Of a stretch of 64,000 nt of DNA, positions 11,646 through 63,236 are shown in pieces. Made by a program: the position numbers and the translations under genes. This DNA comes from Cornus controversa. Its lineage: Eukaryota > Streptophyta > Magnoliopsida > Cornales > Cornaceae. The DNA lies in the NCBI GenBank assembly GCA_026545225.1, contig CM048849.1, positions 31,010,336 through 31,074,335 of the forward strand, written 5' to 3'. The notes below the pieces were generated by a model. It was not told where the DNA came from. It saw only the letters and a program-made list of their open reading frames with translations, and did no database searches. The stretch's first letter is position 1. Each line of letters starts with the position of its first letter.

Positions 11646-11720
<75 letters not shown>

Positions 11721-27119: not shown

Positions 27120-27300
27120 GATAATCTGCTCTGCTCCCCCTCTCTCTCTCTCTTCTCTCTATCTCTCTCTCTCGAAAAAATGAGGCGAGTTAAAGAATAG
27201 GAGTAGGGTTTTTGAAATGAAGTGAAGGAGAGGTGATTAGGGTTGGGTCTCTGAAACAAGTCCTTTAGGGTCCGAACCAAAATTGAATCCGTCCGGAAAA
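27120..27300 (-). promoter_or_regulatory. RPS16 copy 2 leader and telo-box region
   Basis: Same layout as copy 1: a GA/CT-rich leader (27133-27175 on the plus strand), then on the minus strand AAACCCTA (27204-27211) and AACCCTAA (27237-27244). Confidence 0.65.
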
Positions 27301-27388
27301 GATCCGATTAAGTGTGCTTTTGGTTTTAGATCTCAAAATCTTACTTTCCCCCTCCCCAAAAAAATATCATTGTACTAGGATAATATAA

Positions 27389-35540: not shown

Positions 35541-36157
35541 TCTTTAACAAGCTCATTGAGAGCTTGATCAAGTGATGGGAGAGGAGAGAGATGAAGGAGC
35601 CGACCACACAAAGGCTCAAAATCACTATAAAGACTTATCAAGAATTGTTGAAGGTGAGACTGATTAAGATACTCCAAAAATTTTGTGGCTTCTAAAACGT
35701 GTTCTCATGATGGTTCTGAAAGAGCTAGTTGATCCCAAAGACATTTCATATAAGCAAAAAATTCATTAATGCACTAAATTGGTTCCTATTTGAGATTATA
35801 AAGATGAACCATTAATTGATATTGGCGAGCGCCATCAGAACCAGAGTATAAAAAAACAAGCATATCCTAGACTTCTTTGGCAGTGTCATAACTCCCAAAT
35901 TCCATACAAATGGAAGAATTTGTTTGTGTTACGGAGCCATATGATAATCTTATGATTGTTGTTATCCCAATCTTCAACTCAAGAAATAAAGGCATTTGAT
36001 ATTTCTTCTTTGCTCGAAACTGGTAGCTTACGATCCCCAATTATGTAAGATCATATCTTGTGGCCTTTAAGGAAGCTAGCATTGATTGATTCAAAAAAGT
36101 GTAATTGTCCCCATTAAGGATAACAGAAATAGGATGACTAAGCTTATTTTGTGCCAT
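35541..36157 (-). pseudogene. Copia gag (UBN2-like) remnant, interrupted by the hAT
   Basis: Starts at ATG 36155-36157 with MAQNKLSHPISVILNGDNY, typical of Copia gag. It continues through SYDTAKEVWDMLVFLYSG and SHLQQFLISLYSDFEPL to PLPSLDQALNELVKE. At that point the hAT interrupts the frame, and gag sequence resumes below 30907. Several stops occur (for example after RYDLT). Confidence 0.85.
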
Positions 36158-41923: not shown

Positions 41924-42139
41924 GTACATGTCACACCCCGATTTCTGATACCAGGAAATCGATAGTGATTATGTAAGAAATCATACTCCCAATCACACTT
42001 CCTCTTTGATATCATGCTTGATATCGTCACATGTCACTTAATCATCTCACATTATTATCGTGGAACATACATCATACCCATAATCTCATAAAATATAACT
42101 CAAGGTGTTCAATAATACATATAACACTCTCATTCAAAT

Positions 42140-42370
42140 TTCGGTCGACTGAAAGCTAGGCAATTCATCGGCTGAGTGGTCCTCAGCTTCGGTCAACTGA
42201 AGGAAGTCTTTTAGTTGACTAAAAGGTTGTTTTCGTTGACTGGAGGATCTTTCGGTCGACTGATGAAATGTTTCGGTCGACCGAAATAGGTCCCTGTAGA
42301 CCCTACAAATGCAAATTCTAAGTATCTCACACTTTCGGTCGACTGATAGGGGCATCAATCGACTAAAACT
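42140..42370. repeat. Array of GTCGAC-centred palindrome-like motifs in solo LTR C
   Basis: Exact GTCGAC cores at 42144, 42255, 42276 and 42338, mostly inside TTTCGGTCGACTGA-type contexts. One perfect 16-bp palindrome TTTCGGTCGACCGAAA lies at 42271-42286. At least four variants (GTCAAC, GTTGAC, TTGACT, ATCGAC) lie between them. The array starts 211 bp from the LTR 3' end in the retroelement sense. Confidence 0.9.
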
Positions 42371-43926
42371 CCCCAGATCCTATTTTCCTCTGTTTCAAAT
42401 CCTTAATTTGACCTCCTTAAGGTTCATGCTTCAAAAGGTGATTCTATATGCAAGTTTTTCATTATTCAATACTTATCATGTATAATTGAAAATTGTATTT
42501 ATCATTTATGCAACAATTACCCAATCTCATGCACCTTTATATCTATCGTTCTCTATTAATATCCATACATACATAGAATTTAAAGAAAAACCAACTCATC
42601 ATGTTCATTATCTAGCATTCAACATATTCATACAAATTCTCAAGTAAGAAGAAATAACGTAATAGGTCTAAGCTCTCATACACATGTCAAGTGCACTAAG
42701 TCCACATCCCGGACGTACCAAATAACAAAATAACTAGAAAAAAGGGTTCAATGACCCCATATCCATCTCATGGATGATCACCCTCAAGAACTTCCTTGCC
42801 ATGTCTTGAAAATGTTAATGTATAGAGATGAACAAGTTCAACAGCTCAAAGTAATATGTTGTGCAATCCATTCAAGTCCACATTTCATATCACTGCATAA
42901 AGGCAATTCAACGTGTATAATCATGCTAGGTGTCATGCTTCCTAGTATTCTAGTCAATTTATAATGTTTATTTCCATGACATACTCATCAAATACATTTA
43001 ACAACCATAAAGTTCACAACATGTTTCATTGTACAAATCATCATATCTATAACATATGACATAACCAAATTTATTCATAATTCCACTTAATCCACATAAG
43101 TCACATTATCTCATATAATTCAACATAAGGTCACATTGTATACTTAAAATTTCAAGGACACTCTCGGAATTGGCATCACACTCACACATATCCCGGATAT
43201 GTGCCGAAGCCCCATATCCCATTTCCTAATTATTTTAGGGCTACTAACCCACCAGTAACCAACCCTCTTGTACAAGTTCAAGGTCTTACAACCCCCAGAG
43301 ATATACTCTACGTCTAATTTTTACATGAACCATCTCTGAGTCTCACACTCAGTCACACAAAACATATCACATTTTGCATATACATTCACTACTCTTAATG
43401 CATTACATCTAATTCATGTCCTATGTCCATTCTAGCGTGTCATGCAATGATTCATAATAACACAAGTATACATTCAAATTTCAAAGTCATGCTTTCCAAT
43501 AAACTCATCAAAACTCAACATATGCAATCTATATCTCAATTTGCACATCTAGGCAATTCAAGCATTCAACAACCTTTATAAATCATTTCCAATTCAATGA
43601 GACATATATCATCAATTTAAATCAACAATGAATCCATAGGATGTCATATCATTATATGTAATATAATTACATCAATTTTATACTAAAAAAATGAAATTAA
43701 ACTTGAAATGTAAGACACAACACATACCCTCTACCTCAATAGCTATAGTTTCAAGTTATTCCTCACTTCACTCAAAAAATTAATTTTCTTGAAAATCAAT
43801 TTCGGACTGATCAAACTTGATCCCACGTCACGTAGATCGTTTCTTCCTTCTTCGGCGAACTCGAATTCTCACTTGAAGTCCCTCTAAATTGATGAAGAAG
43901 GAAAGAAGAAGATAAAGCTACATATG

Positions 43927-43975
<49 letters not shown>
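43927..43975. repeat. Compound (TA)n(GT)n microsatellite
   Basis: About 19 bases of TA followed by about 30 bases of GT, inside solo LTR C. Confidence 0.95.
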
Positions 43976-43979
<4 letters not shown>

Positions 43980-44550
43980 TACAGCTGCTGGAAATTCAGA
44001 ATGAAGAGATGAATCCTCTTTTTGCTATTTGTAGCAAAATGACCTACTCTTAATTACAACAATGCCATTACTTTTCCCTAAATCTTCCCGGACTCATTTT
44101 CGGAGTTTCGTAACTCCGATTGACACGAAATAAATTTCGTAGTGGGTCAAATACTTTATTTAAACTACCCTCCAAATTTAGAGCCATTCCAACAATTTCG
44201 GATTTTTTGGACCCGTGGGGCTCGTATCCCTTGGTCAACCGGACCCAAAAAAATCAAATTTGGTCAAACGCTCCGAAAATTTCTCCAAACCTTAAGTATG
44301 TTATCTAAACATGTATTTCACCTTTAAAACACATAAACAATCATTTAAAACATTAATATGACAATTAAATAAAATGATGAAAAATGAAAAAAAGTGTTCA
44401 CGGTTCTTACGGTACAGTAATTCCCCAATCACTTTCTCACTCACCCAATTCACAACATAATCGCTTCAGCACTCAACCCAGTTCACAGCCTCCCTAGCCC
44501 TGAATCACTCTCACCAAATCTCACAACAACTTTTTCGCTCTCAACCCAGC

Positions 44551-46070
44551 TGATAGGCGTTGAATGTTACGCATTCTAGCCTCTTAACTTATGTATTTTA
44601 TTCTCTTAGTGATAGATTATTTTGTTATTTTACTTTGTTTTAGTATTTTCTGTATTTTCAGGGCCTTAATGATTATTTCAGTTAAAACCAAGCTTTTGGG
44701 CATTTAAAGAAGACATCCAAGATGGTGAGATGAAGCCTACATCAAGGAGATTCACTCAACCATTTATTTTAACTCAAATCAGCCCAAGGAAGAGGTCCAA
44801 GAGAATTACAGCTGCTTAAGAAGGTTTCGGGCCTGAAGCCCAAATCTGCGCATAATACAGTCTTAATCCCGTTTTGGAAAATGGACCAGAAGTCTTATTT
44901 TCGAGCCTCAAATCGACATTATTTTTACGTAAGGTTGAACGAAATTTGATTCTGCACACTTTTGTATTTCATGAAAATTCCGTAAATCGAACTTCTAGTG
45001 GGTCAAAAGTTGGGCCGAAGTCAGCAGGAAAAACCCACCTGATTAGTGCTGCGGGAAACCCTAATTTATTCCTAATTGGATTAGGAATTTGGTGTATTCT
45101 CTTGGGGAATAAAGTAAAGACTTGGAGGCTGAATTGAGGAGAGATTAGATAGAGAGAACAGAGCTTGGAGAGTCTGAGAAGGCTGAGAAGAGAACAGAAA
45201 CATATTGCAGAGCCATTGGAGAACAAAGTCATACGCGTAATTCAGAAAGATGATGTCTTCTTCCTCAACAGTTGAAGCTTCTTCTTCTACCATGAGCGGT
45301 TAGTTCATCCACTAGGTTTTAATGTAGCCCTAACAAAGCATCAATGGTTTGATTGTTTTAATTATTGGGGACCTTTATATACATGCATAGATTGTGTAAT
45401 TGAGAGGATTCTTATTATAGAATTGAGCAATAAAAGTCTTGTAAATTCAATCTCAATGATTTCTTATCTTGTCTTAGATATTTTAGTTGTTGTTATTGAA
45501 CTCAATCTCTCTTATTTTCTGTGATCATGAGAGAGATTATTACACAATGGTAATCACTGAATATATTGTTATGAGCTTTGACGGATTATGCCTAGAGAAG
45601 ATGAACCATACTGCACCCTAGATTAGAGTAGTTAGGCAGATGGCCCATGCCAATCGAAGATAGTCCATGGCTTAGCCTTAATCATATGTTATCTTCTTGA
45701 CGGATGAAGGTGAGCTTGTAGCCACCGACACCACTTATGCATGATGTAATTCCCCTATAGTTGATTCAATTGACCATTGATTGTGGAGTTAGTGGTGAAG
45801 TCAAACACCCTAGATTTCTCTCTTATTATCTTCACTATCTTATTTATCTTTGATTTATTTTATTTTATCTTTTTAATTAGTTTAAAAATTAAAATTCTTT
45901 TCTCTTAAATTTAATTAAAGTTAATTCCGTATTCCAACTCATCAGACCATAATCCCTAAGGTACGATACCCCTTCCTTTCGATAGCCCTATTCTGCAAGG
46001 AATTCATTCTATTGCGAAGTGTGGAAATTTTTAATTGATATATTTTTGAGTCACACTCACACACGAATCA
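44551..46070 (+). mobile_element. Solo LTR of a Ty3/gypsy (Tat-like) element (type D)
   Basis: Ends TGATAGGCGTTG (44551) and ...CACACGAATCA (46070), with perfect target duplications CCAGC at 44546-44550 and 46071-46075. Removing one duplication and the LTR restores a smooth sequence, CTCTCAACCCAGCCCAAGC. It shares blocks with the LTR at 20777-22383, including TGTAGCC(C/T)TAA, TTGTCTTA(G/A)ATATT and ATTCTATTGCGA. No internal coding region is attached. Confidence 0.8.
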
Positions 46071-46075
46071 CCAGC

Positions 46076-48479
46076 CCAAGCTTCCCAAAGCCTAAGTTAT
46101 CTTACACCAATCTCACCACAATCACTCACACTCCCCCTGTCCAAAGTCTCCCAATACTTGGACTATACATAGTAATAGTAGAGTCAGTTCGATGTAATGA
46201 GAAGCAACTCTTCAAGCTTTGATAGTATGTCTTTTCAAACTCTGATAGTTAGTCTTCAAGGTCCAGCATGATAATGACACGGTCACTAGTCTTCTTGGCA
46301 GATCATGACACTTGAACTTCTTTAAAGATAGGCTTCAATAGGTACACCATTAAGGTGTAGCTGCAACGGTCTTGTAGAAGAACTCTCTTTCAAAGATTTC
46401 TGTTCTCAGTTTCTTGAACAACCATTCAACTTAGAATTCACTTTAAACAATGGTCCGTGTATTTCTTTGTCTTTGTACCTGTTCTTAAAATAGATACAAC
46501 TGCAATTAGAGTAGAAATTATTAGCACAAGCAGTTCAAAATATAAAGAGCATGAACACAATTCAGGAAAGCATTTTTCAACAATTAAAATTCAACAATTC
46601 AGCAATTCCAACCCAACAAACTGTAATTCCAAATCAGCAATAATCGAATTCCAACTTAGCATATGGTAATTCCAAATTAGCAATATTTAAGTTCCAAAAC
46701 AACAATATTAAAATTTCAGAATCAGCAACATTAGAATTTCAGAACAGTAAACATTAAAGACCCAAATTAGCAATTAACTCAAAATCAAGATAGTAACATG
46801 ACATTTAGATAATTCATGCCACTTAAACATTTGATTTCAGCATATTAGAGTTTCAGACAACATTAAATAGAAACAGATTTTCGAAAGCCAATAAACCGAC
46901 AACATAAATCTTGTAGAAACAATTTGATCAACATAAACTCAGATTTTGAAAACTCAATATGGCTAGACAAGATACATGTATTAAGAATTAAACCCAACTT
47001 CAAAAAACAAGATAATAGAGGCAATTGATGTCATAAGTATAGACCATGATATGTAGAGGCCATGAGATACATGAATCATATAGAGATCATAAAGTGTCCA
47101 CCTGTGATTTGTGAGTGAATCAATAAGAAAACCACAAAAGGTGAACTGTGCTCGTGAGCATGCATATTTAAGATATTCTAACAACAGTGCATTTTTAGAG
47201 ATGTGTAGGAGAGAAAATTAGAAAATATTATAGAAATATTTGTGAGCTAAGATGAACCTCTAGATGAACCGAAAAGAACCAAGCATGAATCAGACAGAAT
47301 TCGTCAAAAATGAAGCTCACAGAACAGAACGTTAGAGATAGATTGATGAAGACCAGATTAGAAATTTCAGGTTCTATTCATTGAAGATGAAGAATAGGAG
47401 CTCAAAGAAAAATAGAGGATCATACTCACAGCACAGTAACAGCTAGACAACAGCTGAATCGAAGATGAGGAAGACTTCACAAAAGTTTCAGATCGATGAG
47501 ATATAGAAGCTAGAGATGGCAATTCTAGAACAGTAGAGGTTCTGCTCTCTAACCCAGCGCCGAATCATGCCCTCTACTGTATCACTATTCTTACAGTCCC
47601 TTTCTCTCTATCTTCTCTCAGTTTTTTCAATGTTCTTCATATAAGACCCTTTTTGTCTATCAGCGCCTCACCTCATTGTCTTAATTGACCTAATCTTTTT
47701 CTAAATATATGTGTATACCATGCCACCTCATCTTAACCTATACAAATATATATCATATATAAGATAAATATCATATATATTGATCCTTTCAACAATCAGC
47801 AGAAAAGTGGGTTTATCCAACACCTTTTCTTTTTCAATTTTCTTTTCAATTACAAAACTACCACTCTTTTTTTTTTCTTTATGTAATACTAACATATATG
47901 TATCTATTATGCCAATGCATATGTGCCGCCCCCATCAACTAGCAATTTTTTCTCTTTTTTTTTTAAATGAGAAACCCTAATGACACAAATTCCCAAAAAT
48001 ACCCTTAGGACATCTTTGCTTTAGCATTAATTTACAAATCGTCCTTTTTTGATAAATTCACTAAAGTTTCCCTGCAATTTCGTTAGTGCATAACATGAAA
48101 AAACATAATAGAGCAGGACAATTAATTAAATCATAAGATTATGTGAAATGACACCAATGCCCCTACAGATCCTTTTGACATTAAAACTTGGGCAAACATG
48201 TTCATGGGCTTCCCGGACCATCATAAACAAACCCACTGTCAGTTATCTTCAATAAAACTTGCTATTGGGATACTTCTTTGGTCTATTTAGCTTTAAATCT
48301 TCAACTTAAGATCTCCAAATGGGTCATATTGCACCTTCACTTAATGACCCAATTGCACTAAATAGTGTAGATTTATGATTAAGGACTTGCAAACGAAGAA
48401 AACTAAAAACTAATATTAAAAATATCAAATAAATCACACTAGGGAATTACCATATGCAATATTAAGGGCCTGAATGTGA
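46076..48479. other. Non-coding sequence, probably remains of an older LTR element
   Basis: No gene is supported. The flanks of the two solo LTRs join into one continuous sequence that extends through here, so this is older DNA into which they inserted. About 46586-46770 holds a degenerate repeat of roughly 26-32 bases built around AATTCCAA(A/C)TTAGCAAT. Its origin is unresolved. Confidence 0.35.
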
Positions 48480-48850
48480 AACATTCGGTGCTTATCACAT
48501 GGCAATAGTAAACAAGCCAATACCAGCTATATCTACACATTATGATTGTATAACTGTTATAGACCTAGTGAAACAATCTCATACAAATAAAAAGATGAAT
48601 TGGCATATTCAAGTAAGATACAATCATGTAAGAAGCCTATTGAGTAAAGACATTGTCTCGTGAGAATACATTAAGTTAGAAAAGTATATAGCCGACCAAC
48701 TGACCAAGGGTCTATCTATAAGTGATGTCCTAAACATGTCGATGGGGATGTGCCTAATCCCATAAGGGAGTGAGTTACAGAGGTAACCCATCCTTTGTGA
48801 TTGGAGATCCCATGAAAAAATGTTCAACGGGTAGAAATAATCTGCATTGC
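48480..48850 (+). pseudogene. Copia RNase H C-terminal remnant
   Basis: The plus-strand frame reads KPIPAISTHYDCITVIDLVKQSHTNKK in pieces, then a VRYNHVRSLLSKDIVS segment and IADQLTKGL, the standard end of Copia RNase H. One stop lies after KDIVS. Upstream parts of this element are missing. Downstream, a purine tract and an LTR start follow in the same orientation. Confidence 0.85.
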
Positions 48851-49377
48851 ATGACTCATTTACAATCCTATTTTCTTTGGGAGGTTTCTTATAAAGATTT
48901 TCTCCGACCCATCCCTATAACATAGTTCTTTGTTATGTGACGTTAGGAAGGGCATTTTCGTAAATGAATCTGAGGTGGACATATTCTCGTAGGGTATAGG
49001 TCATATATATCCTTGGAAAATTCACCTAAGTGGAAGCTATCGTGAGGTTACGACTATAAAAATTGAGCCGTTCTTTAGAAACTCTCATGAGAATTAGGGT
49101 ACAAGCGCATTGCCATTAATAGTGCTAACCCACAAAACTAAGTCAATCATAAATATTATGTGTGTGACATGCTGAAATTTGGCTCAGGGGTCGAGTTCAA
49201 GACCTAGTCTCTCTAATCCCTCAAATGGAAGTAGTAAACACTAAGTGTAGGTTCAAGTTCGAAAGATTGCTACACCTATTACATAGTATAAAGTTGCCCC
49301 AATTTTATTATATATATATATATATATATATATGTTTTTGATAATTTTTAAGAGGTTCAGAACCCTTGTGGGGGGAT
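48851..49377 (+). other. 3' untranslated region of the Copia element, ending in a polypurine tract
   Basis: Non-coding, between RNase H and the LTR. It contains a TA microsatellite (49306-49333) and ends with GTGGGGGGAT immediately before TGTTAAGC, the usual polypurine tract to 3' LTR junction. Confidence 0.65.
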
Positions 49378-49629
49378 TGTTAAGCATATAGTAAGGTATC
49401 CAAATCTCTTGACCTATTCAATAGTGGAGTGATTTAATATTGATTTTTCTAACATTTTCTGTTGTTATTTTTGGTTGATTTTATGAATGTGACATCTGGT
49501 TTTTCTTATAATTTGTTTTATACCATTAGACTTCTAACCTATAAATACTAGGAGTCAATAGTCTAAATAGGTATAGAAGATGAAAATATACTTTTTTTTT
49601 CTTTCTCCTTGTTCTCTCATCTTTCATCT
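49378..49629 (+). repeat. 3' LTR of the Copia element, interrupted by the gypsy insertion
   Basis: Begins TGTTAAGCATATAGTAAGG right after the polypurine tract. It has a TATA-like CCTATAAATACTAGG near 49540. At CATCT (49625-49629) the gypsy element begins; the LTR or its flank would resume at 63237. Confidence 0.65.
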
Positions 49630-49858
49630 AATCACACCCTAATTAGGACTCTTGGGAATTGGAGGTGATATCTGGCCATCAAACCCTAATGGACCATTTT
49701 AACCTTTAATTTACCGTGGAAGCTTAATACTCGTAGTGCACATGTATGTACACAATTCAATATCATCCTACCCATAATGGGCCCTATACATTATTCCATA
49801 CTCTACATGCCCAACCTAGTGAGTGGATTCCATTTCTCACAATTGAGACATCATTTTT

Positions 49859-50127
49859 GTACGATCAAAATTGTGTTTTTACATGATTGAAAGTATGATT
49901 TTGCATGATCAAAATATTTGATCATGTGAAGTACTTGTGAAATACTATCAAAGATTGTTGGCCTCTCGGGACTTTTGACACTACATAACTCTGCAATTTT
50001 TTGCACAATCGAAATATGTCAAAAACTCCCTGGAATTTGACTTAGCTTCTATCAGAAATCTCGATACCATTTCGTGCAATCGAAGGCATTTCGATTATCC
50101 AAAATGGGGATTTCGCACGATCAAAAC
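49859..50127. repeat. Array of CGATC(G/A)AAA palindrome-like motifs, LTR copy A
   Basis: Repeated TTTCG/TTTTGCA(C/T)GATC(A/G)AAA-type motifs, for example near 49861, 49905, 50010, 50073 and 50111. The array starts 229 bp from the LTR 3' end in the retroelement sense. Confidence 0.8.
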
Positions 50128-50877
50128 TATCTTCGGCAGAATTCCCTGATTCATCATCCTTAGTCATACTTATACACAAAATTCGTTCTAACATCCTAAG
50201 ATCGACCATACGACCTTCAAATATAAATGAAGCATAATATCACCATATATACATTTAACCTCATGCATTTAATCTAAATCATATATTCATCCTAAATTCT
50301 TCTCATAATTGAACATATTTCCAAGTTCATAAGCAATCCTCACATAAATGCGCATAAGGTCCATCCACACTTTGAATCCAAAATCATATATGTCATAAAT
50401 GTGGTCCTCTAAGTTCATAGTCTTTAATAAATTACATGTGTGTTGTCCAAAAAATCAATAATTCAACTATGACTACAACAATAGTAAAATCAGCATGCCA
50501 CAATCCGACATGGATAGCCACATATAATGTATACAAAAATATGTCCAAAAAGCCAAAAGAGAACTCCACTTGGGCGTTCACATTCCATCCGCTATTAGCG
50601 CCTTATCTGTAAAAAGTTTAGGAGGGGGGGAGAGGGGTGAGGATACAATTACACTCAGTAAGGACACCCCAACCCACCTAGGTATCGACTCGACACCAAC
50701 TTACATAATATGCAACTATGATGTCGCTACACTCTATGTCCTATACCAATGTTCTCATGCTCAACAATTCACAATTGTAATTCAAGGTCATGCATTTAAA
50801 TCATGCAACATGCTTAACAATTAAAACACATAAGCATCAAGATAATTACACGTTATTCAGTCATAATCCGATACATA

Positions 50878-51062
50878 GGCATGATTGGTCCATTCTGACG
50901 ATTATGTGGTGTTGGGCCACTCTGACGACACTCGTGTGATGGGGCAACTCCGATGGTCAGACAATCAAGGCATTATATAAGCCTTGCACTAGTGATGGGG
51001 AAACTTCGATGATAACTGTACTTAGGGTATGATTAGGCATCTCTGACGATCATCCCATTGGG
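50878..51062. repeat. Degenerate about 35-40-bp repeats in LTR copy A
   Basis: Units built on GG(T/C)CACTCTGACGA(C/T) and GGCAACTCCGATGGTCA recur about five times. The corresponding region of copy B (59185-59390) has the same type of repeat. Confidence 0.7.
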
Positions 51063-52313
51063 AGTATTCTCACTAATTCAAACACATGGTTGGTCAACTT
51101 TAAATTCCATGTACATCATACTTGGACAATAATCCGATATACATATGTACATATTCATAAGAAACATACATTTCACAAAGCATACAATTTTCATGCTCTT
51201 CAATGAACATTCTTGCTATATTAGTTCTAGCATGCATTCTTCTACATAATTCTCATATAATCACATATATGCTACAATTCATGCATATCCAATACATATG
51301 CATACATTTCAATTCATATAAATCATGTTCACATCTCATATACATTACATGTCTAAACAAACAATTCACCACATATCATGAAGTGGACAACTCTAGCATG
51401 AATAATTAGGCAATATAAAGGGGAAGGAATAATCTACTCAAATCCCACCACTCACCCATACATGGTAGCTCACTTAACACAATCCTAACTTTACCCAAAC
51501 CCTAGAATTGACAACTAAGAGGGAAGAAACACCCCTACCTCAAGTTTGGAGCTCTTCCTAGCAAGCCCTAGAATTCACCAAACTTCAAGTTCCTCCAAAG
51601 TGCAATCTCTTTTTGTAGAACAGTAGATCGGGACAAAGAGAACACACTTTCCTTCTTGAACTAAGCCCAAATCCACACTCCAACAACCCTCAAATTTTAG
51701 AACTCTCCAAATGGGAACCTTGAAACTACCAAAGTGAAGAGGAATGTGAGAGGAATGACTTTCGCTCTTGGAGCAAGCTCCAAATCTCACTCAAATGTGC
51801 TTAAATCAAAGGAGGAAAGTTGGAGAAGAAGGAGAGCTTGAGAGCTCTTCAATGGTAGATTTCTATCTTTATAGAATCTGTCCCAACAATATACACTAAG
51901 TGTATAGACACCTCACTAAGGGCAAATGACCATTTTGGCCCTAAGTCACTTAACGCACCTCCCGAGCTCCGTTTTATATTTCAAAAGTGGCTACAGTTTT
52001 GAAATCAATTTCTTAACTCATTTTCATCTAGCTCAAAACCAAAATAAATATTTTGAAAAAAATTTCCAGATTCTCGAGCCCACCCGGGGCCCTACTGACC
52101 CAAAAAGTCAAACTTCTCCAAATGTTTCAAAAATTTACCAAACCCCTAAAAAACTTTCCAAACATGTTTTCCATACTTAAAACATGTTAAACATCATTAA
52201 AAATGCATTTATGGCAATTATGATGAATAAAATGTATACCGGCCAAAATTGGTCCCGGTCTCTACAACCTCCCTAACTTCAAGGAATTTTGTCCTCGAAA
52301 TTAGAGACATACC

Positions 52314-52586
52314 TCATGTAGTGAATAGTTGGGGATACTTTGAATGGACTTCTTCTTCCTGTTCCCATGTTGCCTCCTCAATTCTGTGATGCCTCCAAAA
52401 CACTTTAACCAAATGAATGGTTTTACCCTGAAACACCTGCTCTCTAGAGTCCAAAATCTGTATCGGCCTCTCCTCGTAAGACACGTCCTCCTCTACCTCA
52501 AGATCCATCCAATCTAGCATGTGTAAAGGATTCGACTCATACTTTCTCAACATAGAAATGTTGAAAGTATTGTGCACACTTGACAA
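52314..52586 (-). pseudogene. Chromodomain-like C-terminus of gypsy integrase
   Basis: The frame contains VHNTFNISMLRKY, then SYEERPIQILD and VFWRHHRIEEATWEQEEE, the pattern at the integrase C-terminus of plant chromoviruses, where a chromodomain guides insertion. It is separated from the integrase core by stops. Confidence 0.8.
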
Positions 52587-53500
52587 TTATAGTGGTAATG
52601 TCAAGCAATATGTAACCTCACCTATATGATCCAGTATCTCAAACGAACCGATAAATTGTAGGGCTAGCTTCCCGCTATGCCTGAACCTCATCAAACCTCG
52701 TCATGGAGAGACCTTAAGAAAGACATGGTCTCTTACCTCAAATGCCAAAGGCTGCTGCCTTCTATTGGCATAGCTTTTCTGACGACTTTAAGCAGTAAGC
52801 AACCATTATCTTATAATCTTTATCTTTTCTGTAGTCTCTTGGACTATATCTGGCCCTAACGCCACTGTCTCTCCAACCTCTGTCCAATAAGTGGGTGACC
52901 TACAAGGTCTACCATATAATGCCTCGAATGAAGCCATCTCAATACTAACTTGATAGCTATTATTGTATGCAAACTCCACCAATGGAAGGTGATCCTCCCA
53001 ACTACCATGGAAATTGATCGCACATGCCCGAAGCATATTCTCAAAAATTTGTATAATATGCTCAAATTGACCATCTGTTTGAGGATGGAAAGTCATGCTA
53101 AAATGGAGGTCCGTATCAAATGCCACTTAAAAACTCTGCTAAAATTGTGACGTAAACCTCGGATCTCTATCGGACACAATGGAAATTGGAACCCCATGAG
53201 TCTCAAAATCTAATTGATATTAAGCCGACTAAGAGTATCCATGTCATCTTTCACTCGAATTAGAAGAAAGTGGGCCACCTTGGTCAATCTCTCCATAGTG
53301 ATGTGCTCCTACTTTTACATAGCCACCTGTAATGGCTGTAATAAACCTACTGGCCTCTGATGCTTGGCTTTCACTTATTGACAAGTGAGGTACCTCGCCA
53401 TAAACTGTGCGATGTCCTTTTCATACCCTTTCACCAATATTCCTACACAAATTGTGATACATCTTGGTGCCACCGGGATGCACCGCAAGTCTAGAGGTGT
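52587..53500 (-). pseudogene. Gypsy integrase remnant
   Basis: The block 52806-53126 encodes FHPQTDGQFEHIIQ, LPLVEFAYNNSYQ and EALYGRPCRSP, the second half of a gypsy integrase core. The N-terminal integrase part (53130-53500) is recognisable only in broken pieces. The catalytic Asp region upstream could not be read in one frame. Confidence 0.85.
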
Positions 53501-54740
53501 GGAACTGTAGGAACTTCATTTTTATAAGCCAATGGTACAACTATTTTGCCTTTGACCCTCATGCCTCCATCGGAATGTACACTCCAAATCTCTACCACTT
53601 CGCCACCCAAAATTCGGATGCGAATGCTCTCCATTTCACTATCAAGCCTTTGCTCCTCAACCTCTCTACTCACTAGAGTTGGTTGTGCGATGAACGTGAA
53701 TAAAGATGTTGGTTCACCACCCTCACTAAAGTACAATCCCATTTTTGAGATGTCTTCCATCATCTTCCATTCTCGAATGACGATACTAGCTAAGGTACAA
53801 TGTGATTTTATACTCAAAGCATCGACAATCACATTAGCTTTCTCGGGAGATATTGAAGATCAAAATTGTAGTCTTCCATGTACTCCACCCATCTCCTTTG
53901 CCTCATGTTCAAGTCCCTTTGTGTAAAAAGGTACTTTAAGCTCTTGTGATTAAAGAAAACTTTAAACTTTTCCCTGTACAAATAATACCTCCATATTTTC
54001 AATGCAAAAATTATCGCCACTAACTCCAAGTCATGAGTTAGGAAATTTTGCTCAAGTGTCTTCAATTGTCGGGAACCATATGTAACAACCCTCTTGATTT
54101 GCATTAGCACACATCTCGTAAAGCGTTATAATAGATGAAATAACCCAGACCACATTCGGGTATTATCAAAATTGGAGCACTAGTCAATCTACTCTTCAAT
54201 TTCATAAAAGAATACTCGCAAGCATCATTCCATACAAACTTAACTCCTTTGCGAGTAAGCTTTGTCATCGACGTTGCTAACTTTGAAAAGTCTTTCACAA
54301 AATGTCGGTAATAACCTGCCAATCCCAAGAAGCTACGTATCTCAAATACATTCTTTGGCCTTTCCGAATTCATTACTGCCTCAATCTTGGGAGGATCTAT
54401 GGAGACTCCTCCTTCCGACACCACGTGTCCGAGGAATTTCATCTCCGTTAGCCAAAATTCACATTTTTTATATTTGCCATACAAATGGTGCTCCCTCAAA
54501 ATTTGTAATACAATCCTCAACTAAATCTCATGGTCCTCCATAGAATAAGAATACACAAGAATATCTTCGACGAATACCACCACAAATCTGTCCAAGCATA
54601 CACTGAATACTCGATTCATCAAGTCTATAAAAGCTGCTGGTGCATTCATCAAACTGAATAGCATCACTAGAAACTCATAGTGGCCATATCTAGTCTGAAA
54701 AGCTATATTTAAAATATCCTCTTCCCTTACCCTCAACTAG
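53501..54740 (-). pseudogene. Gypsy RT and RNase H remnant
   Basis: RT frames at 54521-54736 and 54104-54520 contain [65 protein letters not shown] and KLTRKG. The RNase H frame 53829-54110 has VVTYGSRQLKTLEQNFLTHD and FNHKSLKYLF, and its tail continues into 53491-53832. The RT active-site motif reads VEDI where VFIDDI is expected, so one catalytic Asp is replaced by Glu. Confidence 0.88.
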
Positions 54741-54844
54741 TAATACCCCGACCTTAAGTCAATTTTTAAAAAATAAGTTGAACCCTTAAGTTGATCAAAC
54801 AAGTCATCTATCCTTGGCAAATGATACTTGTTCTTAATAGTTGC

Positions 54845-55093
54845 TGTAGTAACCCTTGTGGACGGGTGTGAGTGGGCGGATGCGAAGACAGACACTGGGC
54901 TGAGCTACCACACTGACAGGGTATAGGGTGTTCAATCCCACATCGACTGGGTGTAGAAAAGGGGATGTGCTTATATGTAGTATGCTCTTTTCAAATGGTA
55001 TGAGGCCTTTGGGGTAAAACACAAGAGCAAAATCGTACGGGCTTAGGCCCAAAGTGAACAATATCATACCATGTGTTGGAGCGAGGTATTATA
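54845..55093 (+). mobile_element. Solo LTR of a TRIM retrotransposon
   Basis: 249 bp, from TGTAGTAACCC to GAGGTATTATA (the final ACA mutated to ATA). Perfect target duplications GTTGC lie at 54840-54844 and 55094-55098. It is clearly the same family as 55914-56483, and splits the gypsy RT. Confidence 0.92.
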
Positions 55094-55099
55094 GTTGCT

Positions 55100-55913
55100 T
55101 GGTTCAACTTTCAATAAGCTATGCATAACCGTAGAGGTCTGTCCTCCTTCTTAACAAAGGGGACTAGAGCTCCCCAAGGTGACGTACTAGGCCATATAAA
55201 TCCCTTATCGACTAGCTCTTACAATTGATCCTTCAACTCCTTTAATTATGCCAGAGTCATACAGTATGGTGCCATGGAGATGGGAACAGTATCAGGAGCT
55301 AGATCAATGCTAAACACTATATCCCTCATCGGAGGTAACCCTGTCAAGTCCTCCGAAAATACATTTAGGAAATCACATACCATCGGTGGAAACCCTTCAC
55401 GCGTCACAATCTCATCATATTCCCGAGAACTAGAACTAAGTAATGACGGTATGTAAAAGTCATCACGTTCTCCTACAAAATTAAAGCAATCACCCTCGGC
55501 TGTGCACACTGTCACTCTTCTACAGAGACAATCAATTATGGCTCTAAACGTATACAACCAATTCATACCTAGAATGACATCAAAAGTGGTCATATCTAGT
55601 AGCACAAAGTCAAACACTAGTCAACATCTCGCAACCTCGATCTCGTAAGACTGACACACTCTACCCAAGGTAAATCTACCCCCAATAGGTGTATCAATGG
55701 ACAATGGTGACTCCAGTGATAACAAATCCAGCCCTAAGGCACAAGCAAATGCAGTAGATATGAATGAATGAGATACACCTGAATTTATCAACACCCTAAT
55801 CCACGAGGTAGAAACTAGGAATATACCTCTGACCACTGATGATCCTGGAACATCCTCTACCTGAGCAAGCATGAAAACATGGCCCTGAGTCTGTTGACCA
55901 TGTAAGCCAGTCC
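55100..55913 (-). pseudogene. Gypsy protease and RT N-terminal remnant
   Basis: The protease region (55621-55905) has VLINSGVSHSFIS where VLIDSGASHSFIS is expected, so the catalytic Asp is Asn. It continues through the FDVILGMNWL segment (55540-55590) to the RT entry LTGLPPMRDIVFSIDLAPDT (55300-55350). A TRIM interrupts the coding region directly upstream. Confidence 0.85.
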
Positions 55914-56483
55914 TGTAGTAACGCTTGTGGACGGGTGTGAGTGGGTGGGTGCAAAGATTGACACTGGGCTGAGCTACCACACTGACAGGGTACAGGGTGC
56001 TCAATCCCACATTGCCTGGGTGTGAAAAAGGGGATGTGCTTATATGTAGTATGTTCTCTTCAAATGGTATGAGGCCTTTTGGGGTAAAACCCAAGAGCAA
56101 AACCGTGCGGGCTCAGGCCCAAAGCGGACAATATCATACCATGTGTTGGAGCGGGGTATTACAATTGGTATCAGAGTCTGAACCCAGCCGGAAGTGTGCC
56201 GACGAGGACGCCGGGCCTTGTAGGGGGGTGGATTGTAGTAACCCTTGTGGACGGGTGTGAGTGGGTGGGTGCAAAGACTGACACTGGACTGAGCTACCAC
56301 ACTGACAGGGTACAGGGTGCTCAATCCCACATTGCCTGGGTGTGAAAAAGGGGATGTGCTTATATGTAGTATGTTCTCTTCAAATGGTATGAGGCCTTTT
56401 GGGGTAAAACCCAAGAGTAAAACCGTGCAGGCTCAGGCCTAAAGCGGACAATATCATACCATGTGTTGGAGCGGGGTATTACA
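55914..56483 (+). mobile_element. Complete TRIM retrotransposon, 570 bp
   Basis: Two 250-bp LTRs (55914-56163 and 56234-56483) run TGTAGTAAC...GGTATTACA. They flank only 70 bp, which consists of a primer site TGGTATCAGAGTCTG (from 56166), a short middle, and a polypurine tract AGGGGGGTGGAT (56222-56233). Perfect target duplications AGTCC lie at 55909-55913 and 56484-56488. By eye the LTRs differ at about six positions. It encodes no protein and needs enzymes from an autonomous partner. The LTR resembles the widespread eudicot TRIM type with CCCAAAGCGGACAATATC. Confidence 0.95.
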
Positions 56484-56489
56484 AGTCCC

Positions 56490-57660
56490 CTAAAACCCTG
56501 ACTCCTAGCTAGAAGTAGGCGTAGAACCCCTCGTTGTTTGAGAACCTTGAACTAAATGTGCTGGCTGAGGTAGTGGCAACGCCTTATGGCCAGACTGAAC
56601 TATGGAAGTCAGTACGATCTTCTGCTAAGACCCAAAACTACTATGTGTACCCTGCCTCTGAGGGAAGTTCACTCTAATATGTTCGAGCTATCGATAATGG
56701 AAGCATGTTCGCTCCCCTTTCGCTATCATTGGCACTCTCGCCATAACCTCCCTCTGATGGCACTTTGATCTGTAATGACTAGACTGTTGATAGTGATAAC
56801 ATACCACTGTAGACTGTGGGGGTCTGGTAGATAGAGTCGATGATGGTGCCGGCCGAGCCTGATGTTACCCTTGAGAAAGTGATGCACTATCTCTGTTCCT
56901 CTTCCTCCCTTAACCATTAGAAGATGTCTTGGAACCCTTTGCCTGGTTCCTTACTTCCTTAGTCCTCTGATTTTCATTACTGACTTCCTCTACCACCAAG
57001 GCTCTCTTCACTACTATAGCGTAGCTCGTCAAACCCAAAACTGTAATCCGATCCCTTATGAAGGCTTGGAGACCTCTCATGAACCTTTTTACCTTTAGTT
57101 CCTCAATAGGGATCACTTCAGGTGCAAAATGAGCTAAGGATGTGAACACGATCTCGTATTCCATTGCCGTCATGTTGCTTTGTTGCAACTCATAGAATTC
57201 CTGCCTTAAACTGTCTTTCACTATTACCAGAAAGTATTTCTCAAAGAAGAGCGCTTGGAACATGCCCCAATCCATTGCCTCGACGTCATGGTAGTTCTAA
57301 ATAAACTTCCACCAATGGTTGGCCTCACCTGTGAGATGATGGGTAACCACTTTCACTTTCAAGTCTTCCTCTACCTCTAGAACAGTAAGGAGTTTGACTA
57401 TGTCGTCTAACCAATTCTTAGCCACCATGGGATCAGACCCCCAGTATATGATGGCATATTATGTTTCTTAACATTGTTCAACGCCACTATCATTCTACTA
57501 GGAGCGGCTCTTGGTGGAGCCTGATTCTCCACTTATGTTTCCCTCATAATTTGCTGCATAGTAGTGACCATGTCGTGCATAAACTATTTTCCATCAATTA
57601 GAGCTACAATGGCTGCTCCCCCATGAGCTCTCCATGGCGGCATATTGCTATATATAGATA
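56490..57660 (-). pseudogene. Gypsy gag remnant
   Basis: Translation starts near 57646 (MPPWRAHGGAA). It continues with frameshifts through a KNWLDDIVKLL segment and ANHWWKF, and then the open block 56910-57275 with FFEKYFLVIVKDSLRQEFYEL, SLAHFAPEVI and FMRGLQAFIRD. The zinc-knuckle region (56720-56900) is broken. This is the capsid-like part of the chromovirus-type element. Confidence 0.85.
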
Positions 57661-58119
57661 ACAAGAAGATTCAATATTCAAATACACATGCTTATGTAGT
57701 TCTCATTATGTTATCTCTTCCTCACGCTAAGTTATTTTATAATTAGCATGTTATCAAGACATATACAAGTAATTCATGTTCCATATAAGAAATTCATAAA
57801 CCTCAACTTTAAATCCTTAGCCTCAATTAAACATATAATTAAATTTCACCATTTGTCCCAAGGTATTCAGACCTAATGTTCTGATACCATGTTGTCAAGC
57901 CCCAATTTCTGACTTCTAGGAACTGGAGGTGACATCCGACCATCAAAACCTCATGGACTGTCTTAACCTTTAATTTACTGTGGAAGCTTAATACTCGTAG
58001 TGCATATATATGTACACAACTCAATATCATCTTACCCATAATGGGCCCCACATATTATTCCATATTCTGCATGCCTAACCTATTGAGTGGATTACCATTT
58101 CACATAGTTGAGACATCAT

Positions 58120-58431
58120 TTTTGTATGATCGAAATTGTGCTTTCGCATGATCGAAAATATGATTTCACATGATTGAAATATTTGATTATGTGAAGTACT
58201 TACAAAATACTATTGAGGATTGTTAGCCTCTCGGGACTTCTGACACTACACAACTCTATAATTTTTTGCACGATCGAAATTAGAGTTTCGTACAATCAAA
58301 ATTCTCAATCGATCGAAGTTCTATCAAAAACTCCTTGGAATTTGACTTAGGTTCTATCAAAAATCTCGATACCATTCGTGTAATCGAAGACAATTCAATC
58401 ATCCGAAATAGGGATTTTGCATGATCAAAAC
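58120..58431. repeat. Array of CGATCGAAA palindrome-like motifs, LTR copy B
   Basis: Motifs such as TTTCGCATGATCGAAA (58142-58157), CACGATCGAAAT and CAATCGATCGAAG recur with mutations. The array begins 230 bp from the LTR 3' end, as in copy A. Confidence 0.82.
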
Positions 58432-59616
58432 TGTCTTCGGCAGAATTCCATGATTCAGCATACTTAGTCATTCTTATACACAAAATCCGTTCTAACATCC
58501 TAAGATCGACCATACGACCTTCAAATCATAAATGAAACATAATATCACCATATATACATTCCAACTCATGCATTTAATCTAAATCATACATTCATCCTAA
58601 ATTCTTATCATAATTGAACATATTTTCAAGTTCATAAGCAATCCTCACATAAATGCGCATAAGGTCCATCCACACTTTGAATCCAAATTCATATATGTCA
58701 TAAATGTGGTCCTCCAAGTTCATAGTCATTAATGAATTACATGTGTGTTGTCTAAAAATATCAATAATTCAACTATGACTACAACAATAGTAAAATCAAT
58801 ATGCCACAAGCCGACATGGATAGCCATATATAATGTATACAAAAATATGTCCAGAAAGCCAAACAAGAACTCCACTTGGGCATTCACGTTCCATCCACCA
58901 TTGACGCCTTATCTGTAAAAAGTTTGGGGGGGGGGGAGAGGGGTGAGCATACAACTATGCTCAGTAACACGCCCCAACCCACCTAGGTATCTACCCAACA
59001 CCGACTTACATAATATGCAACTATGATGTCGCTATACTCCATGACATATACCAATGTTCTCATGCTTAACAATTCACAATTGTAATTCAAGGTCATGCAT
59101 TTAAATCATGTAACATGCTTAACAATTAAAATACATAAGCATCAAGATAATTACACCTTATTCGGTCATAATCTGATACATATGCATGATTGATCAACTC
59201 CGACAATCATGTGGTGTTGGGTCACTCTGACGACACCAAAGTGTTGGTCAACTCCGACAACACTCATGTGATAGGGCAACTCTGATGGTCACACATCAAG
59301 GCATTATATAATCCTTACACTAGTGATTAGGCAACTCCGATGATCACTATACTTAGGGTATGATTGGGCGTCTCCGATGATCATCCCATTAGAAGTATTT
59401 TCACGAATTAAAACACATGATTGGTCAACTTTGAATTCCATGTACATCATACTTGGACAATACTCCGATATACATGTGTATATATTCATAGGACACATAA
59501 ATTTCACAAAGCATACAATTCTCATGCTCTTCAATGCACATTCTAGCTATTTTAGTTCTAGCATGCATTCATCTACATAATTTCCATATAATCACATATA
59601 TGCAACAATTCATGCA

Positions 59617-62280
59617 TGTAGAGACCGGAACGAAATTTAACTGGTTTTCAAAAAATTTTATCATTTTTGCTATAAATGTGTTTCGAATGATGTTTTGGAT
59701 GTTTTGAGAGTGAAAAACATGTTTGGAAACATGTTATGAGATTTTTGGAAGTTTTCGAAACTTTTGAAAAAGTTTGACTTTTTGGTCAACGGGAGCCCCG
59801 AGATGAGGTTTAATGAGTTCGAGAATTTCAGAAAAATTTTAAAAAAATTTATTTTTGACTATGGACTAAAGGAAATGTTTAGAGTGTTAAAGAAGTGATT
59901 TTAAGACCAAGAGAGTTTTCAAAATCAAAAACTGAAGTTAGGAGGGTACCTTAATTGGTCCGGCGGCAAATCTGTCATTTTGCGTCCCGAGGAGTGAGAT
60001 AAATATCCCAAGATCTGAGATTTTTCACTTTTAGAAATCTCTTTCTCTCTCTTTCTCACCCACTTCATCTTTCTCTCTTCTCTCTAGATTTTGGAGCACT
60101 TAGGGTGATTTGGAGGTTCCTAAAGAAGGGAAATGCGTAGGGGACAACAAGGGCATTGGTTCGAACCGATCAAAGTTTCTGTCTCATGAAGTTGAAAAGG
60201 CTGCAATTTTCAAAGTTGATTTCCAAGCTTGAGATTTGAGGTAGGGGTGTCTTCTCCTTCCTTTCATCGGTTCTCTAGGACCTTTTGTGATATATGGTTG
60301 TGTTAGCATGGTTTAGGAAGGTAAAAGGTCTTTTCTTGACTTCCTTTGATGTTTAAACATGCTAAAAATGTTCATTGTATAATTTATGTGGTGTAAGAAA
60401 AATATGTTAGTCCTATACATGTTAAAAATTGAGTTTTGTGGTTATATGTGAGATGTATGATGCAGGTGACTTGTATGAATGTCATACATGAAAGATTGTG
60501 TGCTTAACATGCTAGTTATAACTTAATGATATTTTTCACATGTTATGACTATTGGTTGAGAAGCATGAGGTTCATTAGGCTTACCTTGAACCATGACTTG
60601 AATTATGTGATCTTGAATGCCATAAGTTGAAAAATGCATCAAATGAGTGATTTTCTAGGTTAATGCATTTGGTGATTATTGTGGGTGAAAATGCATGCAA
60701 TATTATGCGTATGTTAGGATTGCTTAGCATAGGTTGCTCTTGGTGGAAAGTGGGATGGTTGTTGGAAATAGAATGAGTATTAAGGAAGTTGGACTTTAAG
60801 AATGGATGCACACGGAAGGTGTGATGAGCTAATATTTTCAATTGGTGAAAAACGGACTCCTCTCATTCAATTGGTAGTTTTCAATTGAAGGGGATCTGTA
60901 GTAACAATCTTGAGGTTGACGGGTGTCAACATGTGATAATCTTGATGGTTGTGAAAATCTTGGGTTATGACGTTGAAAGGATTTCGGTTGTGACATTTAG
61001 AGAATTTGTGGAGTTGAATACTTGGAGATAGATTGAGTTTGGTTCATGAATTGTGAATTTATGTAAAGATTGTGGTTTGTGAAATTGAGAGGCGTATTGT
61101 GTTGTTTCATGTTCATGTATGGTTGAGTGAGTAATTGCTATTTGTCACATTGTTACTTTGCTGATAACATGAGTATTAAGCATGCCATGTAACATAGGGA
61201 TGACATGAGACATATCATGTAGGTCTGCGTCGACTTGATGCTTAGGTGGGATTGGTCATCTCTATTGAGCCGCCGTGGTGCTCACCCCTTTTCCCTCAAA
61301 TATTTTTACAGAAAGGCACCAATGGAGGATGATGCATGATTGACTTGATGGAGTTTTGAAGTTCCTTTGGATTTTTGATATATAGATAGATGTCCATGCC
61401 GGCTTGTGGCCTGTGGACTAAGTTGAAAGCATTGTAATATATTATGTTGAACTATGTTAGTAGGCTCTTGTTTCAAATGTAATGATTTTATATATGTGGA
61501 TCATATGTGACTTTTGGATTCAAATGGAAAGATGTTGGTTTCTTTTCCGTTATTATAGTTTTTGGATATGAATGCTTGGGGCGTGATGATCATGAGTATG
61601 ATATAATGCCTGTGAATGATGTAGGTTCCTTTCTTGTATGATTTTAGAGTTGTATGGACTTATTATGATGATAGGAAGGACTTAGAATGCCAAGAATGAC
61701 CAATAGTTGAGCTGCAGGATTTTCTCAAGGTGCATCAATCCGGGCACTTCGATGCATCGAAATACCCACTTCGATGCATCGATCCATTGATGCATCGAAA
61801 TGGAAAGAACGATGCATCAAAAAACCTGTAGGATTTTGAGAACCAAAAGTCCTGAGAGTTATTTTTGGACGATACTTGTGAGATGTATCGAACAATCGAT
61901 GCATCGAAATTATCATTTTGATGCATCGAACCTAGAATGCATCGAAACCGTCATTTCGATGGATCAAAATGCACGCCAGGCAAAAATGTTGAAATACCTT
62001 AAGATGGACACCGGGCGCTATGTATTGACTTTAATGAAACTTGTTGAGTCTACAACCCATGGTCGTATGTATGTGCACACGATTTAAGCTTCCGCAATGA
62101 GATTGATGATGACATTAGTGAGGTGATTGAGTCAGTGACAACACAGTCACCCTCAGTTTTCGTAGAATGCAAATCGGGGTGTGACAAACATGGTATCAGA
62201 CCGTGGTACCATAATGAGATAGGTGAGATGATAACACAGCTCACCCTCAGTTTTCGGTGAACAAAAAGTCGGGTGTGACA
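59617..62280 (+). mobile_element. Gypsy LTR remnant (type E): LTR, primer site and a second LTR tail
   Basis: Inserted in the opposite orientation to its host LTR, with perfect duplications ATGCA (59612-59616 and 62281-62285). One LTR runs from TGTAGAGACCGG (59617) to GGGTGTGACA (62186). It is followed by AACA and TGGTATCAGACC (62191-62202), a primer site. After a short piece, a second copy of the LTR tail (about 62210-62280) ends GGGTGTGACA. Nearly all internal sequence and most of the second LTR are therefore deleted. LTR ends match the host family, showing a shared lineage. No coding region remains. Confidence 0.9.
61731..61970. repeat. Array of GATGCATC palindromes in LTR E
   Basis: Exact GATGCATC at 61751, 61773, 61789, 61811, 61898 and 61920, mostly as TTCGATGCATCGAA-type palindromes. 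Variants lie near 61731, 61882, 61936 and 61957. The array ends 216 bp before the LTR 3' end. Open frames across it give repetitive peptides (FDASM, MHRS) with no sign of being a gene. Confidence 0.93.
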
Positions 62281-63236
62281 ATGCATATCCAACACATATG
62301 TATACATTTTAATTCATATCAATCATGCTCACATCTCATATACATTACATTTATAAACACACAATTCACCACATATCATGAATTGGACAACTCTAGCATG
62401 AATAATTAGGCAATATAAAGGGAAAGGAATAATCTACTCAACTCCCACCACTCATCCATTCATGCTAGCTCACTTCACACAATCCCAGCTTTCCCTAAAC
62501 CCTAGAATCGACAACTAAGAGGGAAAAAACACCCTACCTCAAGTTTGGAGCTCTTCTTAGCAAGCCTTAAAATTCACCAAACTTCAAGTTCTTTCAAAGT
62601 GTAATCTCTTTTTGTAGAACCGTAGATCAGGACAAGGAGAACACACTTTCCTTCTTAAACGAAACCTGAATCCACACTCCAACAACCCTTAAATTTCAGA
62701 ACTCTCCAAATGGGAACCTTGAAACCACCAAAATGAAGAGGAAGGTGAGGGGAATGACTTTCTCTCTTGGAGCAAGCTCCAAATTTCACCCAGAGGTGCT
62801 CAAATTAAAGGAGGAAATTTGGAGAATAAGGAGAGCCTAAAAGCTCTTCAATGGCAGATTTTTATCTCTATAGAATCTATTCTAGCAATATACACTAAGT
62901 GTATAGACACCTCACTAAGGGCAAATGACCATTTTGCCCCTAAGTCACTTAAAGCATCTCCCGAACTCTGTTTTTGATTTTGAAAGTGGCTATGATTTGA
63001 AAATCACTTCCTTAACACATTAAACATTTCATGTAACTCAAAGCCAAAAATAAATATTTTTCAAAAAATTTCTGAATTCTTGACCCCACTCGGGCTGCGT
63101 CCCAAAGCCTCGTTGACGCAAAAAGTTAAACTTCTTCAAATGTTCTGAAAATTTTCCAAAATTAAAAATGCATTTATGACAATTATGATGAATAAAATGC
63201 AAACCAAGCAAAATTGTTCCCGGTCTCTACACATCT

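Follow-up and report, generated by a model that had tools for sequence, protein, structure and literature searches.

The window analyzed here, 64,000 bp of Cornus controversa DNA (contig CM048849.1, positions 31,010,336 to 31,074,335) from a host genome of 772 Mb, contains long terminal repeats (LTRs) of one Ty3/gypsy retrotransposon lineage, each of which carries in its last third an array of short repeated units; these arrays are the subject of the present analysis. A solo LTR read from the sequence, denoted C (41929..44411, minus strand, 2483 bp), is bounded by the target-site duplication (TSD) GTACA at 41924-41928 and 44412-44416. Farther along lies a decayed element on the minus strand (49630-63231), bounded by the TSD CATCT at 49625-49629 and 63232-63236, with LTR A (49630..52266) as its 3′ LTR and LTR B as its 5′ LTR. 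The latter is split by an inserted plus-strand LTR, E (59617..62280; TSD ATGCA at 59612-59616 and 62281-62285), into an inner part (57893..59616), beside the primer-binding site (PBS; TGGTATCAGA, 57880..57889, minus strand), and an outer part (62281..63231). The initial annotation regarded A and B as separate copies and placed the end of E at 62186. The shared TSD makes A and B the two LTRs of one element (86% identity over the largest aligned piece), and the TSD of E puts its end at 62280, position 62186 belonging to an inner copy of the LTR end that is followed by a copy of the PBS (62177..62200, plus strand). Repeated units do lie where that annotation reported four arrays, and the LTR starts are homologous between types (z of 21.9 for C-A, 23.5 for C-E and 47.9 for A-E, but only 6.2 for C-B); given that A and B belong to one element, however, the independent LTRs, and hence the independent arrays, are three rather than four, namely C, A/B and E.

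Remains of the coding region succeed one another in the gypsy order on the minus strand of the A-B element: a gag fragment (56910..57296; PF03732, E-value 1.9e-10), protease fragments in two open stretches (55246..56112; PF08284, E-values 3.3e-20 and 2.1e-11), an RNase H-like stretch under the cut-off (54104-54520) and, at the end of pol, a probable chromodomain (52314..52586; PF00385, E-value 0.0016, 18.8 bits against a cut-off of 25.1). No integrase of this element was recognized by Pfam, and a Gag search returned no homologue at an E-value of 0.001. The clear gag and protease fragments, together with the weak chromodomain, point to a Ty3/gypsy lineage that is probably a chromovirus. The protease region (54844-56484) also contains a repeat of ~250 bp in three copies of 90-98% identity.

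Array C (42139..42367, minus strand) consists of six units of the TTTCAGTCGACCGAAA / TTTCGGTCGACCGAAA kind, and array E (61735..61971, plus strand) of nine units of the TTTCGATGCATCGAAA kind, with centre gaps of 22, 16, 22, 71, 16, 22, 16 and 22 bp. The units of arrays A (49855..50126, minus strand) and B (58120..58430, minus strand), which are of the same type, combine symmetric arms with an asymmetric core (ATYRTG type). Unit length in the window is ~16 bp. The earlier description of the units as mostly palindromic holds for E and in part for C, but not for the asymmetric core of A and B; E is the sole array in which exact palindromes are in excess over dinucleotide shuffles (P 0.009, versus 0.125 in C, 0.71 in A and 0.56 in B), and a strict scan for 16-mer palindromes failed to single out the arrays (two in C, one in E, none in A and B). 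The motif was also said to be swapped from type to type; the letters do differ, but the frame TTTCG-N6-CGAAA is common to all three unit types. Counted in the same window data from which it was derived, this frame has, with up to two mismatches, 3 matches in C, 6 in A, 8 in B and 4 in E, compared with 31 over the remaining ~63 kb. The likeness of arrays B and E is equalled by no scan window outside the arrays; that of C and B is the top value from the C side, while from the B side 84 of 696 scan windows reach it; and that of C and E is ordinary, being reached in 159 of 703. A MAFFT alignment of the four arrays was poor, and no claim is based on it.

The units in the window, which were chosen for likeness before likeness was scored, are alike at 0.73-0.80, and the adjoining 6 nt at 0.22-0.36, near the chance level of 0.26-0.28. 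Under random placement, at least four gaps of exactly 22 bp, as in E, have a P of 0.0004 (0.006 for any value occurring four times), and three of five gaps at 22 bp, as in B, a P of 0.00001 (0.0009 for any value occurring three times); the corresponding P for 22-bp gaps is 0.003 in A and 0.14 in C. The CpG-rich stretches of the window include arrays E and C, which have 16 and 13 CpG per 250 bp (mean, 3.8). Between types, the 3′ flanks of the arrays show only a weak likeness (z of 3.2-6.6); those of A, B and E have in common a block around TTAAGCTTCC(A/G)C that is better preserved than the rest of the interval from the array to the LTR end (positions for comparison, 42050-42070, 49700-49740, 57980-58010 and 62080-62100; C is unclear). 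With respect to sequences elsewhere, a search for pairs of the frame yielded 6 stretches in a viral collection and 67 in a bacterial one, the bacterial record titles being microbial; Rfam, at E-values up to 1, gave five matches, none close to the gathering score; and the unit strings were met in the literature in three papers, which, as judged by title and abstract, deal with other subjects.

The junction of LTR end and PBS, GGTGTGACA-N(2-5)-TGGTATCAGA, occurs 405 times in the host genome and 0 times when read backwards. Our survey sample comprises 98 copies (C1, 80; C2, 18), which are the first listed of these junctions with no random draw; of the 100 junctions listed, two that lay at a distance of 95-97 bp from another one were dropped before fetching. 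Arrays were defined by the best perfectly palindromic 12-mer with at least four sites at 100-700 bp from the LTR end. Such a 12-mer is present in 40 of the 98 copies, as against 3 of 1,176 shuffles, and in 39 after removal of L134, whose motif is AT-rich. L121, with an AT-rich best motif and own shuffles that reached four sites, was relabelled as the asymmetric type for the trees described below, and ten copies were typed on weaker evidence (L082, L086, L096, L104, L139, L159, L113, L114, L149 and L172), so that typed copies number 49 of the 98 in total. A symmetry-free search found a 14-mer at four or more sites in 65 of the 98 copies, a count made without shuffles; the symmetry of these 14-mers is 0.69, compared with 0.51 after letter shuffling, and 11 of the 65 reach at least 0.9, compared with 0.4%. 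The arrays are real, and they extend beyond the window to many copies of the lineage.

Palindrome density by position, the measure proposed in the initial annotation, exceeds that of shuffles in these 98 copies, most strongly at 200-700 bp from the LTR 3′ end. Palindromes of at least 10 bp per copy number 0.18 versus 0.12 in shuffles at 200-300 bp, 0.41 versus 0.10 at 300-400 bp, where the excess peaks at 4-fold, 0.28 versus 0.13 at 400-500 bp, 0.22 versus 0.12 at 500-600 bp and 0.17 versus 0.08 at 600-700 bp, and the ratio is 1.2 both closer to the LTR end than 200 bp and at 700-800 bp. Where 3 kb was read (80 copies), the bins at 1300-1600, 1700 and 2600 bp are raised as well, to 0.18-0.25 versus ~0.10. 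The narrow, fixed offset of 211-230 bp claimed earlier gives way to a zone: the unit nearest to the LTR 3′ end lies at 183-543 bp (median 339, n = 39). In the window, nearest-unit centres taken from the LTR ends as first assigned lie at 217.5 bp in C, 210.5 bp (a weak unit) or 232.5 bp in A, 234.5 bp in B and 224.5 bp in E, and array E starts about 311 bp from the true end at 62280.

The 39 copies display 15 best motifs, one of which, AT-rich and from L121, stands in the place of the asymmetric type; the commonest are ACGATGCATCGT (11 copies), TCGATTAATCGA (7), TCGATGCATCGA (5) and TGAGGCGCCTCA (4), and six motif forms around GTCGAC account for 7 copies. Thirteen of 14 half-sites fall into two networks of single-letter steps, a count for which no null was made. 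Beyond the 12-mer seed, 62-64% of dyad pairs still match (259 units), and 44% and 37% of the outermost ones, versus ~27%. Among 220 unit-to-unit gaps, 91 are of 22 bp, 15 of 21 bp, 39 of 16-20 bp and none of 23-26 bp; moreover, gap patterns such as 22,18,22 and 22,19,22 repeat across different types. Helical phasing of the longer gaps gave low Rayleigh values and was not used, as copies of a type are non-independent and gaps other than 22 bp are off the 22-bp phase. Within copies, the likeness is 0.74 for units and 0.43 for the 6-nt spacers between 22-bp neighbours, with 0.27 expected by chance. Symmetry, spacing and zone are kept while the letters turn over, and this variation of the letters from copy to copy points to symmetry and spacing as being more important than any fixed sequence.

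The array type was further compared with trees of the LTR flanks. In the tree of the flank at 1.1-2 kb from the LTR end (49 rows, without the short rows L171, L172 and L178), the 15 labels require 33 changes, compared with 33.8 when shuffled, and 81 of 200 label shuffles do as well, so that unit type shows no link to this part of the LTR. The changes number 31 versus 34.2 shuffled at 0.75-1.7 kb (50 rows; 9 of 200 shuffles do as well), 32 versus 36.1 at 640-900 bp (53 rows; 0 of 200) and 30 versus 36.1 in the last 185 bp (53 rows; 0 of 200). Thus, the array loosely tracks the near flanks but not the distant backbone. Many forks in these trees are weak and some branches are long, which makes single placements unsure and the label counts less so. 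LTR E itself is a mosaic: its far flank groups with L113, L118 and L133 (support 100), which carry three other types, and its tail with L152 and L088 (support 99), which carry the same type as E. This claim is based on the trees only, given that pairwise tail identities and profiles come from gap-permissive alignments that overstate identity. L091 and L126 are close relatives in both flanks, and four of the five units of L091 read TTTCAG...CTGAAA, whereas most units of L126 read TTTGAG...CTCAAA, both half-sites having changed together; a mixed unit, CAGGCGACTCAAAC, is common to the two copies, and the symmetric change thus affects most units rather than all.

Several other features of the lineage and the window were noted along the way. 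L107 and L108 have near-identical flanks (branches of 0.004 and 0.001) and the same array type, and are probably a recent copy pair. A copy of the LTR end and PBS, followed ~94-97 bp on by a second LTR end, is seen in the window (62177-62280) and also in L118, L119 and L157, and an extra GTGTGACA lies 20-160 bp before the LTR end used in 6 of the 98 copies; duplication of the LTR end recurs in the lineage. The window also contains a 2.4-kb direct repeat of 85% identity (17515-19902 and 25059-27392) and a tandem repeat with units of ~170-180 bp (9605-10121).

The repetition of the units, their symmetry, spacing and zone, their turnover and their reshuffling relative to the distant backbone are observed properties of these LTRs. 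To account for them, we tentatively propose, with a probability of roughly 0.42, that the last third of this chromovirus-like LTR harbours an array of dyad-symmetric cis sites for a dimeric factor that are subject to fast turnover. Under this proposal, each unit would bind one dimer, with one subunit per half-site, and the 22-bp distance, about two helical turns, could hold adjacent dimers together and allow them to cooperate. The array as a whole would then form a multivalent landing pad for a factor that might benefit the expression of the element or protect it from silencing. A shift in specificity would involve a symmetric change in both half-sites that subsequently spreads through most units, and recombination could move arrays between LTR backbones. 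The proposal draws on the excess of palindromic units, the 22-bp gaps, the dyad matches past the seed and the contrast in likeness between units and spacers, as well as on the symmetric change between L091 and L126, the half-site networks, the unlinking of type from backbone, the lack of a sense-strand bias discussed below, and the precedents of Sirevirus boxes and VANC targets. The suggestion in the initial annotation that selection acts on having a palindrome array gains support in that the survey found the excess in the 200-700 bp zone, 15 motifs that share the 22-bp spacing, no link of unit type to the distant backbone and symmetric change in close relatives; it is curtailed in that neither the narrow offset nor above-chance palindromes in each window array (only E has them) held up.

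The main rival of binding by a dimeric factor is self-recognition of RNA, which we consider possible although rather unlikely. Palindromes in a transcribed leader, upstream of the PBS, could pair between two genomic RNAs for dimerization and packaging or, in a variant, the units could fold on each other, a 16-nt stem and a 6-nt loop making up the 22 nt, with the letters serving as family barcodes. The arrays indeed fold far below shuffles: among 16 hand-picked copies of 13 types, the mean fold z is -5.9 for the sense strand, compared with 0.0 for the first flank, and the arrays of the window also form dips (-8.6 to -9.5 in E, -5.0 in C, -4.3 in A and only -2.6 in B; the lowest value elsewhere in the LTRs is -2.8). 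In a fold scan of the whole window, the scan windows of E and C rank 6, 7, 11 and 12 of 320, and A and B are not among the best 25; stretches of 200 bp that fold as well as array E or better lie at 11601-11800, 1601-1800, 35401-35600, 2601-2800 and 27401-27600. The antisense strand, however, folds equally (-5.4), and the wobble counts show no clear sign of a sense-strand bias, GU not being favoured over AC either within units (164 versus 138) or between neighbours at 21-22 bp (117 versus 114), and AC being above GU in the window arrays (23 to 9, with A and B both counted), although decay after insertion blurs this test and makes it weak. Furthermore, neighbouring asymmetric-core units at 21-22 bp frequently share one orientation (23 cases, against 13 of opposite orientation, in nine related sequences), and such mixed orientation of units with symmetric arms fits contacts of a protein with the arms better than pairing of whole units; together with the lack of strand bias, it also weakens the reading of 22 as a hairpin stem plus loop. 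As regards the leader, TATA-like sites scored with a matrix lie at LTR positions 393 in A, 359 in B and 378 in C, each followed by the CT-richest tract or one of the CT-richest tracts of the LTR, all near 360-490. If sites at ~360-395 were used, the array would be part of a transcribed leader, about 1.7 kb downstream. Every LTR nevertheless has better-scoring sites elsewhere, and the site near 380 in E is outside its nine best. Ty3 and retroviruses, according to two reports (PMC11381356, PMC5874298), do dimerize through palindromes near the RNA 5′ end.

Neutral concerted turnover, which we regard as unlikely, would mean that short palindromes come into being, propagate through slippage or through template switching in the course of reverse transcription, and are in turn replaced, all without use to the element, while LTR recombination does the shuffling. 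The likeness of units within arrays and their unlikeness between arrays, the partial likeness of spacers (0.43 versus 0.27 by chance) and the mosaic LTRs are all in keeping with such a process; but copying of 22-bp blocks should leave spacers as alike as units, and symmetry across many unrelated-looking types, an equal 22-bp gap in different types and the limits of the zone are unexpected without constraint. A conflict over silencing alone appears more improbable still. Array hairpins would feed small RNAs, and a change of letters would let families escape the small RNAs of their relatives. The strong folding on both strands and the CpG richness of arrays E and C agree with this, as do the palindrome regions of maize Sireviruses, which attract small RNAs according to PMC5311732 and PMC10760457, and the overlap between VANC targets and targets of RNA-directed DNA methylation mentioned in PMC10398659; escape alone, however, leaves the kept symmetry and spacing unexplained.

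Several observations speak against sites for a dimeric factor as well. Under the palindrome rule, 59 of the 98 copies lack an array, and about half have none by any rule applied, which counts against the universality of arrays, although some of these copies look decayed or of kinds that the rules miss, and others could belong to different lineages. The 39 of 220 gaps that measure 16-20 bp are too short for two helical turns, and the spacers are not entirely free. No VANC-like gene was seen among the open stretches of at least 100 aa at 36-64 kb, six having been scanned in a decayed element and without a VANC model search, and the examined stretches of the A-B element show parts of gag and pol only. 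Moreover, at least 14 specificities in one genome would require many partners or one tolerant partner, and concerted turnover of repeats could mimic part of the pattern. Conceivably, though this is a doubtful extension, the arrays are exchangeable specificity cassettes by which a large retrotransposon lineage, inside a single genome, encodes self and non-self. Each family would carry one palindromic word, repeated every 22 bp; this word would undergo symmetric, concerted change and be transferred between LTR backbones by recombination. Each family might then be read by a partner of its own, either the RNA, Gag or integrase of the element itself or a factor of the host, thereby escaping silencing aimed at its relatives. 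The arrays bear on two wider questions, the rapid evolution of LTRs and the means by which an element recognizes its own family among hundreds of related ones. Within this one genome, the same device exists in many natural variants, alike in zone, symmetry and spacing but different in their letters.

Among known systems, retroviral and Ty3 dimerization sites resemble the arrays in having self-complementary words near the 5′ end of the genomic RNA. HIV-1 is described as having several palindromes at one dimerization site (PMC11381356, PMC5874298), but these sites comprise one or few palindromes, in contrast to the arrays of 4-10 units at 22-bp spacing seen here. At the level of the whole element, Tekay-clade chromoviruses such as Bongo of Beta, characterized by long LTRs (2561-3000 bp in the complete ones listed), a Met-tRNA PBS, a 5-bp TSD and a chromodomain at the end of pol (PMC3605345), are similar in their long LTRs, Met-tRNA PBS and 5-bp TSD and in the position of the chromodomain, which is a probable one in the A-B element. 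The LTR lengths of 2.48-2.67 kb in the window and the PBS fit the Tekay clade, which is no proof of membership, and neither 'palindrom' nor 'tandem' occurs in the main text of that paper. A search of the open literature, covered mostly at the level of titles and abstracts and with subscription journals mostly outside it, showed no report of gypsy arrays of this kind, of 22-bp spacing or of unlinking between type and backbone.

The VANDAL elements of Arabidopsis have family-specific, diverging motif arrays that are read by the element-made VANC protein, according to PMC5735166 and PMC10398659. Like the units described here, VANC targets are short repeated motifs that lie outside the coding parts and that agree within a family but differ from one related family to the next; unlike the present elements, VANDALs are DNA transposons with a VANC gene, and the word 'palindrome' does not occur in PMC5735166. 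The LTRs of Sireviruses (Ty1/copia) contain, according to PMC2829016, clusters of element-specific palindromic boxes, mostly CGG-CCG, which occupy the upper half of the LTR and precede the TATA box. The likeness extends to clusters of CpG-rich palindromic units of one kind per element that differ between elements, and a Vitis Sirevirus box given in that paper, CGGTCGACCG, is contained in the type C unit TTTCGGTCGACCGAAA. In contrast to the copia Sireviruses, the window element is gypsy by its domains and their order, its arrays occupy the last third of the LTR rather than the upper half, CGG-CCG occurs in TCGGTCGACCGA (array C, and 1 of 39 copies) while most other motifs lack it, unit centres have a spacing of 22 bp, and a single genome yields 15 best motifs from 39 copies. 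Sirevirus palindromic boxes and VANDAL/VANC motif arrays are the closest precedents, and clustered LTR palindromes, known from Sireviruses, are now extended to a gypsy lineage.

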